Shown: positions 20,612 through 21,406 of the stretch, piece by piece
Layout of the letters: each line of letters begins with the position of its first letter
How positions within the stretch are numbered: position 1 is the stretch's first letter
Source of the DNA: Methanotrichaceae archaeon
GTDB taxonomy: Archaea > Halobacteriota > Methanosarcinia > Methanotrichales > Methanotrichaceae
NCBI GenBank assembly: GCA_013178225.1
Contig: JABLXE010000006.1
Span: forward strand, 1-64,000
Reading direction: 5' to 3'
Length of the DNA: 64,000 bases
Notes under the pieces: model-generated
Told to the model about the DNA's origin: nothing
Databases searched by the model: none
What the model saw: the letters and a program-made list of their open reading frames with translations, nothing else
Translations under genes and position numbers: made by a program

Positions 20612-21406
20612 ATGACCGATCCTTTCGTCAGCTCCGAGGTGGACCGGACCAAATCCCGGTGGGTGGCCAGGGCCTTCCGGGAGTTCGGCCCTCGGAAATC
20701 AACGCTGCGGGCCTTCTTCTACTTCTGTCTGCAGCGATCAGAGCCGGACTACCCCATCTGCGGCGGATTTGTGGGCGAGATCCGGGCGACCAGATCCTAT
20801 CACCAGAGCGATGGCCAGAAGCTGGCCAAATGGGCCGGCAAGGCCCAGGCACTGGGCTTCCTGCCCCAGGACGCCTTTCTCCAGGAAGAGCCGGGAGAGC
20901 ATATCTTCTGCCCGCAGGGATACGGCAGCCGCACTCCGCAGCTGGAGCTGTGGACCCACAAATCGGCCTTCAATTCCCTTCTCCAGCCGGTGTGCGCCAG
21001 ACACCGGGCGGCGCTGGTCTCATCCGGCCAGGTCTCGCCGCGGCTGCAGCAGGAGTTGGTCAGACGCGCCGTCCGGCCGACAACCGTCCTGGCCCTCACG
21101 GACCTCTCCTGCGAGGGGTTTTGCTGGTATCAAGACCTGGTCCGTTCAGCCGGCCAGGCCGGGATCGCACCGGCGGTGGAGGTCGTGTCTGCCGGGATCA
21201 CTCCCCAGCAGGCCCTGGACCTGAACCTGCCTCAGGTCTCGCAGATGAAGGGCCCTCGGGATATTCAGAGAGAGTACAGGAGGCACCTCAAGCCTCAGGG
21301 CCTGGAAGACCGCCGGATGGTCGAGCTGGATGCTCTGGAGGTCTTGTATCCCGGAGGGCTGGCGGCGTTTGCCGACCGCATCTTGAGCAGCCGTAGCTCC
21401 CGCTAG
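20612..21406 (+). CDS. Toprim-like protein related to Spo11/Topo VI-A-type proteins, altered catalytic sites
   Basis: 264 residues. The layout follows stand-alone Topo VI-A/Spo11-like Toprim proteins known mostly from phages: a winged-helix-like start (KSTLRAFFYFCLQRSEPDYP, KWAGKAQALGFLP), a strand with ELWTHKSAF where the family has E-V-W-x-E-K-x-A-L, then LALTDLSCEGFCW where D-F-D-P-S-G is usual, and ITPQQALDLNLPQ...KG...VELDALEVLYPGGLA, matching ALTxEQ...LPP...K...ELDAL. The catalytic Glu position reads His and the DxDPSG motif is degenerate, so cleavage or ligation activity is doubtful. This is inference by eye. It stands alone between the phosphoesterase and the converging ABC operon. 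Confidence 0.6.
   Translation: MTDPFVSSEVDRTKSRWVARAFREFGPRKSTLRAFFYFCLQRSEPDYPICGGFVGEIRATRSYHQSDGQKLAKWAGKAQALGFLPQDAFLQEEPGEHIFCPQGYGSRTPQLELWTHKSAFNSLLQPVCARHRAALVSSGQVSPRLQQELVRRAVRPTTVLALTDLSCEGFCWYQDLVRSAGQAGIAPAVEVVSAGITPQQALDLNLPQVSQMKGPRDIQREYRRHLKPQGLEDRRMVELDALEVLYPGGLAAFADRILSSRSSR

Follow-up and report, generated by a model that had tools for sequence, protein, structure and literature searches.

Spo11 has its origin in a subunit of a topoisomerase, and modules resembling the A subunit of topoisomerase VI (Topo VI-A) are also represented by phage Mini-A and by the MksG and JetD nucleases. Mini-A is a stand-alone, truncated homologue of both Topo VI-A and Spo11, and is found in phages and mobile elements.

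Several of the residues upon which proteins of this type depend have been described. Specifically, the available portion of PMC13040014 assigns to M. mazei Topo VI-A a tetrad composed of E202, D254, D256 and E342 together with a tyrosine, Y106, and describes a clasp between R102 and E342 that holds this tyrosine off DNA, an E342Q variant cutting more. In mouse SPO11, E224A is reported to abolish cleavage (PMC11922746, available portion). In yeast Spo11, E233 and D288 are reported as essential, D290N as having little effect and D290A as partly reducing breaks, while the E233A substitution weakens DNA binding by roughly a factor of ten (PMC11746154, available portion). Given these mutants, loss of the Toprim glutamate is a telling change, while loss of the second aspartate alone would not be.

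The window, that is, the whole 64,000-nucleotide stretch of Methanotrichaceae DNA analysed here, carries a 264-aa open reading frame with an ATG start at 20612–21406, on the forward strand, where all window features given below also lie. On the basis of the reading frame, its homologues and a structure model, the product appears to be a decommissioned Mini-A/Topo VI-A-like protein. Its translation contains TLR (residues 31–33), E112-L-W-T-H116-K117, D164-L-S166-C-E-G, TPQQ...LP and ELDAL (238–242), in agreement with the motifs (TLR, ExWxxK, DLSxEG, TxxQ..LP..ELDAL) read in the initial annotation. That the frame is an artefact or a chance occurrence was rejected, because 37 of 50 genomes from Methanotrichaceae contain homologues. 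Resemblance to Mini-A includes length, the order of winged-helix and Toprim domains, the stand-alone state without a B subunit, and the motifs TLR..YY, ExWxEK, GDxDPSG, Q..LP and ELDAL.

Searches with the window protein alone against Pfam, PHROGs and PDB sequences yielded no meaningful match, and NCBIfam likewise gave none. PHROG 6247, 'DNA topoisomerase', was matched by 23 of 24 family members scanned singly (best E 4.4e-14) but not by the window protein, which is an unusually divergent member. When a profile of 33 members was aligned with hhalign to one of 11 Mini-A-type proteins, the match (Prob 99.3, E 3.3e-20) extended over 234 columns and took in the winged helix. The phage set comprised 76 records when reached from locus L061 and, with E no higher than 1e-20, 68 records when reached from L109; Pseudomonas phage NP1, which is shown as an example of Mini-A in the available portion of PMC7614492, falls in the same phage set as the Mini-A relatives of the family. 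Alignment of the family to Topo VI-A by the same method was weak (Prob 2.8, E 0.016), and a paralogous relationship of the gene to the Topo VI-A of the cell was rejected on this weak similarity and on the finding that its nearest relatives are Mini-A-type. The true Topo VI-A of the window genome lies on a different contig and contains the M. mazei residues, all shifted by the same 9 positions, as counted by eye.

An AlphaFold2 model of the window protein (pLDDT 89.6, pTM 0.86) contains a Toprim domain at residues ~108–262 (20933–21397), delimited by the model together with Foldseek and VIA-align. The eight Foldseek matches to PDB at E below 0.001 consist of seven Topo VI-A chains and the C. 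glutamicum MksG-type nuclease 8b7f, and the top eight VIA-align matches, with Z from 13.0 to 11.2, are Topo VI-A, 8b7f and JetD. Individual scores were Z 13.0 for 9o0g, 12.8 for 1d3y, 11.3 for MksG, 11.2 for JetD (7til) and 9.9 for Spo11 (8urq), with unrelated oxidoreductases ranking near Z 10, after JetD and ahead of Spo11; alignments to the Topo VI-A group span residues 94–263 only. A BFVD fold search returned only weak matches to primase Toprim domains. Together, the profile match to Mini-A-type Topo VI-A homologues and the PDB fold matches, with Topo VI-A the best on superposition, bear out the initial annotation, which had proposed a Toprim protein of Topo VI-A/Spo11 type akin to proteins known mainly from phages; neither outcome named there as a refutation was observed, as the model has a Toprim fold and no unrelated family gave a better hit. 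The N-terminal domain (residues ~1–95, 20612–20896), which bears the tyrosine helix, is winged-helix-like by hhalign to the Mini-A set. Modelled alone with AlphaFold2 (pLDDT 86), this domain had no significant match among PDB structures, its best VIA score being Z 5.2 to the histone H1 globular domain, and its winged-helix nature is therefore drawn from the profile alignment.

The gene is flanked in the window by a 5'-nucleotidase-like gene and an ABC-2 exporter, and among its eight neighbours there are no mobile-element genes. With simple ORF calling, the commonest neighbouring protein cluster is present at only 7 of the 31 loci of the family, and no gene for a Topo VI B subunit (the ATPase) adjoins the window frame. 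Searches for mobile relatives gave a similar picture: tblastn against phages, run with the window protein and with family member L024, produced no match, scans of viral contigs with the family profile A1, L065 and L066 detected no relative, and a plasmid search returned two matches, both insignificant. Descriptions of the gene as chromosomal and as standing alone are thus both upheld. JetD and MksG, nucleases of Wadjet, share the Toprim match noted above; unlike them, the family is accompanied by no SMC-like JetABC genes among the neighbours tested, has no conserved neighbours and is assigned by PADLOC to none of the Wadjet models. A role as a component of a defence system was rejected: the sole PADLOC match was to Csm6, at E 0.021, in 1 of 24 members, and conserved neighbours are lacking. 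A promoter and terminator scan, which relies on a bacterial consensus, yielded nothing useful.

Methanothrix species, to whose family the gene belongs, are acetate-eating methane archaea. In a first search of 60 genomes, homologues (E 2e-34 to 4e-78) were detected in 26 genomes besides that of the window, or 27 of 60 in all, and none in the 23 genomes representing other families within the class. All 30 loci recovered by a search of genome contigs are titled Methanothrix, Methanosaeta, Methanotrichaceae, Methanosarcinales or unplaced euryarchaeote. Profile A1, built from 24 members, is positive in 37 of 50 Methanotrichaceae genomes, in 25 of the 33 good ones and in 10 of 11 genera, with an unbroken frame in 33 of the 37. 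A profile search across 392 genomes of the phylum gave four weak matches outside the family, and these are Mini-A-type proteins with the Toprim glutamate intact. True Topo VI-A is present in 48 of the 50 genomes, including all 33 good ones.

Phylogenetic analysis placed the 33 members in a single clade (support 100/99), joined with equal support (100/99) by a sister pair, L065 and L066, in which the glutamate and DxD motif are intact. L065 is a second locus in a Methanotrichaceae genome; L066 comes from another family of the class and adjoins a tyrosine integrase (L150), which points to a mobile source. When active-site columns were removed from the tree, one change again sufficed, indicating one origin. 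Within the family, L024 branches first (95/92). Distances among family proteins track those among Topo VI-A proteins (rho 0.78, 0 of 5000 permutations) over 27 genomes, namely those of the 33 with a Topo VI-A locus in hand, and inheritance has thus been mainly vertical. It has not been wholly so, because the window copy clusters with L031–L033 of another genus and the window Topo VI-A does not. The family is accordingly set apart from Mini-A, which is encoded by viruses and mobile elements, by being chromosomal and mostly vertically inherited.

Residues were counted across the 33 intact-frame members and 17 intact relatives (seven phage, all fetched, and ten archaeal), L064 and L113 being excluded from the relatives as partial or too distant. 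At the site that corresponds to the Toprim glutamate (M. mazei E202), occupied in the window protein by H116 (20957–20959), the members carry Asn (18), Asp (7), Ser (4), Ala (3) or His (1) and never Glu, which is present in 17 of 17 relatives. The initial annotation's reading of His in place of Glu is thus correct for the window sequence but does not describe the family, in which His occurs once and the loss of Glu is universal. At the motif that it read as DxDPSG altered to DLSCEG, the family has lost the second aspartate: D164 (21101–21103), the first aspartate (M. mazei D254), is retained in 33/33 members and 17/17 relatives, whereas the position of the second (M. mazei D256), S166 in the window protein (21107–21109), is Ser in 30 members, Thr in one, Ala in one and Asp only in L024, that is, non-acidic in 32/33, as against Asp in 15 and Asn in two of the relatives. 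Since L024 has lost the glutamate and kept D166, the glutamate was lost first and the second aspartate next. The tree requires at least 11 changes at position 116, four at 166, one at 37 and two at 33.

Other residues have been largely retained. By hhalign, R33 and Y37 align to TLRqlyY of the Mini-A set, forming R-x-x-x-Y on the second helix. Y37 (20720–20722), equivalent to the catalytic tyrosine M. mazei Y106, is conserved in 31/33 members (Cys in L010 and L014) and 17/17 relatives; R33 (20708–20710), equivalent to the M. mazei clasp arginine R102 (role from the available portion of PMC13040014), is likewise conserved in 31/33 (Gly in L010, Ala in L022) and 17/17. E238 of ELDAL (21323–21325) is invariant in the family and Glu in 16 relatives (Gln in one). 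It is the probable equivalent of the clasp glutamate E342, an equivalence we infer because the profile match to Topo VI-A is of low probability, that to Mini-A being strong. A clasp would not be universal, two members having lost the tyrosine and two the arginine. E112 is present in 33/33 members and 15/17 relatives and D240 in 32/33 members, and a basic residue that precedes the glycine of the Toprim loop (R/K in 15/17 relatives) has been lost in the family. Overall, the family shares with Topo VI-A and Spo11 the fold (Z 13.0 to 9.9) and the positions of the tyrosine, arginine, first aspartate and C-terminal glutamate, but is shorter, has lost metal ligands, lacks a nearby B gene and matches its own Topo VI-A weakly in sequence. 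Plant SPO11-2, the DxN variant, has also lost the second DxD aspartate; in the available portion of PMC11302465, however, the replacement is Asn and other key residues are kept, whereas the present family has lost the essential glutamate too. In L101 and L102, Mini-A-type proteins of another family of the phylum, a GDYNPSG motif likewise carries Asn in place of the second aspartate with the glutamate intact, as in plant SPO11-2.

A further difference from Mini-A is provided by residues 46–62 (YPICG..VGEIR..R, 20747–20797), the most conserved segment of the protein, with a mean entropy of 0.30 bits relative to 1.49 for the whole; the lowest-entropy 16-residue window begins at residue 46, and Y47, P48, I49, C50, G51, G55, E56, R58 and R61 are each present in 33/33 members. 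In the model this segment forms a beta-hairpin, with strands at 47–50 and 57–61, between the tyrosine helix (32–41) and a helix at 65–80, and is thus predicted to sit in the turn of the helix-turn-helix next to the tyrosine. Typical Mini-A proteins have a short turn at this site, and L065 and L066 a longer turn of different sequence; the hairpin is specific to the family.

On balance, we consider it probable that a Mini-A protein was captured once, decommissioned stepwise and kept as a non-cleaving DNA-binding protein, this function being a prediction. The domesticated, non-cleaving reading, one of two raised by the initial annotation, is favoured by the phylogeny, purifying selection and published mutant data. 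A Mini-A-type protein would have entered the Methanotrichaceae chromosome in a single event and lost first the Toprim glutamate and then the second DxD aspartate, keeping the fold, the first aspartate, the C-terminal glutamate and the helix that bears the tyrosine and the arginine, with the hairpin in the helix-turn-helix turn. The protein, for which the models are of monomers, is predicted to dimerize as its relatives do and to hold duplex DNA in a channel that its winged-helix and Toprim domains enclose between them. Lacking the metal-A glutamate, the protein would not cut, and the Arg/Glu clasp and the new hairpin beside the tyrosine could favour a closed, DNA-holding state, suited to an architectural or regulatory role. 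By analogy with yeast E233A, and given the lost basic residue of the Toprim loop, DNA binding may be weakened too.

Of the alternatives, one, which takes up the different metal arrangement raised by the initial annotation, holds that the protein is still an enzyme, a single metal being bound by D164 together with E112, D116 or N116, E238 or D240 and allowing weak nicking or some other phosphodiester chemistry. The conservation of D164, E112, E238 and D240, the retention of the tyrosine in 31/33 members and the non-essential nature of yeast D290 (PMC11746154, available portion) are consistent with such a site, and the case is strongest in the 7/33 members with Asp at position 116, in which, by analogy with the dispensable yeast residue, weak activity may persist. 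As a description of the family, however, a rearranged site appears unlikely: position 116 accepts five residues through its many changes, unlike a catalytic position, the tyrosine is gone in L010 and L014, and the mouse E224A mutant has lost cleavage. Moreover, E112, D164 and E238 are not new substitutes, as they are conserved in 15, 17 and 16, respectively, of the 17 intact relatives.

In this superfamily, active sites span two subunits, and in mouse a tyrosine mutant combined with E224A restores nicking (PMC11922746, available portion), which opens the possibility that the family protein pairs with the cell's Topo VI-A or with an incoming Mini-A, either donating its tyrosine to a one-sided hybrid site or poisoning the partner. 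Retention of tyrosine and arginine with loss of the Toprim glutamate is what would be expected of a tyrosine donor, and candidate partners exist in the Topo VI-A of the same genomes and in Mini-A-like genes with intact motifs within Methanotrichaceae (L064, L065). We nonetheless regard a mixed dimer as distinctly unlikely, given that the distance from Topo VI-A makes a shared dimer interface doubtful, that two members lack the tyrosine, and that the 31 loci reveal no genomic linkage to any partner.

That the gene is a decaying remnant of a mobile element, without present function, would accord with the loss of catalytic residues and with evolution ~3.9 times faster than that of Topo VI-A. The gene is, moreover, missing from 13/50 genomes (seven in genus g10, two in g5 and four in g2), and the four non-intact copies comprise two that are frame-broken (G026, G029), one at a contig end (G077) and one 3' remnant (G079), with an extra remnant in G019. 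The family gene is dispensable, as its absences, the two broken frames and the remnant attest. Against decay stand the 33 intact frames and the dN/dS values of 0.147–0.464 in the 20 pairs whose dS is below 0.7 (15 of these pairs come from six genomes of a single genus), which show purifying selection in close pairs and already strain this explanation. With the hairpin near-invariant across genera and the gene present in 10 of 11, decay seems very unlikely. Most improbable is that the protein no longer binds DNA and serves, through the conserved hairpin, as a protein-interaction scaffold. Constraint has shifted away from the Toprim site towards this hairpin, where YPICG and VGEIR are invariant, and the basic loop residue is lost, as such a role might suggest, but R58 and R61 are invariant in that hairpin beside the tyrosine helix, where Spo11 touches DNA, and R33 is kept, its Spo11 equivalent R131 contacting a phosphate (PMC11746154, available portion).

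Mini-A and Topo VI-A are known; as far as the literature was searched, a chromosomal clade with a dismantled Toprim site and a new hairpin is undescribed, and the archaeal list of the 2020 Mini-A paper may include some of these genes. Literature searches found no report of topoisomerase VI in Methanosaetaceae or of Spo11 in Methanothrix, and no catalytically inactive Spo11-like archaeal Toprim family named in titles or abstract openings among the matches listed. Returning to the captured, non-cleaving protein favoured here, a DNA cutter of viral type would, if this is correct, have been converted into a DNA-binding protein. The intact sisters, the intermediate L024 and 32 further decommissioned members reveal the order in which catalytic residues were lost, and the clade separates the parts needed for cutting (the glutamate and second aspartate) from parts retained otherwise (the tyrosine helix, the Arg/Glu clasp and the first aspartate), offering a predicted natural non-cutting version with which to study how the Topo VI-A fold holds DNA. 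Tentatively, and as a possibility less likely than not, the family may have made a viral Spo11-type cutter into a standing component of its chromosome biology. The protein would then either form a dimer, metal-free and always clasped, that uses the new hairpin as a reading head to bend or mark DNA, or act as a tyrosine donor completing a hybrid site with another Topo VI-A-type subunit. We know of no Topo VI-A homologue working without Toprim catalysis of its own, and either form would, if true, be the first such homologue known to us.

Several additional loci were observed. The proteins of L065 (919–2379, 486 aa) and L066 (450–2072, 540 aa) are long and Mini-A-like, with a long, probably helical C-terminal extension. 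At L151 (6523–10510, G003:C65), in a Methanotrichaceae genome, the partial Mini-A-type gene L064 lies beside a D5-type primase/helicase gene in what is likely a mobile element, and the Topo VI-A-like protein of L112 (G003:C128), in which E-A-K and GDNDKHG motifs occur, is very divergent and sits on a long branch. The remnant in G019 (L153, 6121–6314, contig C71) is a 3' portion that shares 85% identity with the complete copy in that genome and represents a decayed duplicate. Finally, the family gene's opening 22 codons are found at the very ends of two further G036 contigs (L156 and L157; C51 and C110) that share blocks 91–95% identical, perhaps representing extra gene copies lost in assembly.
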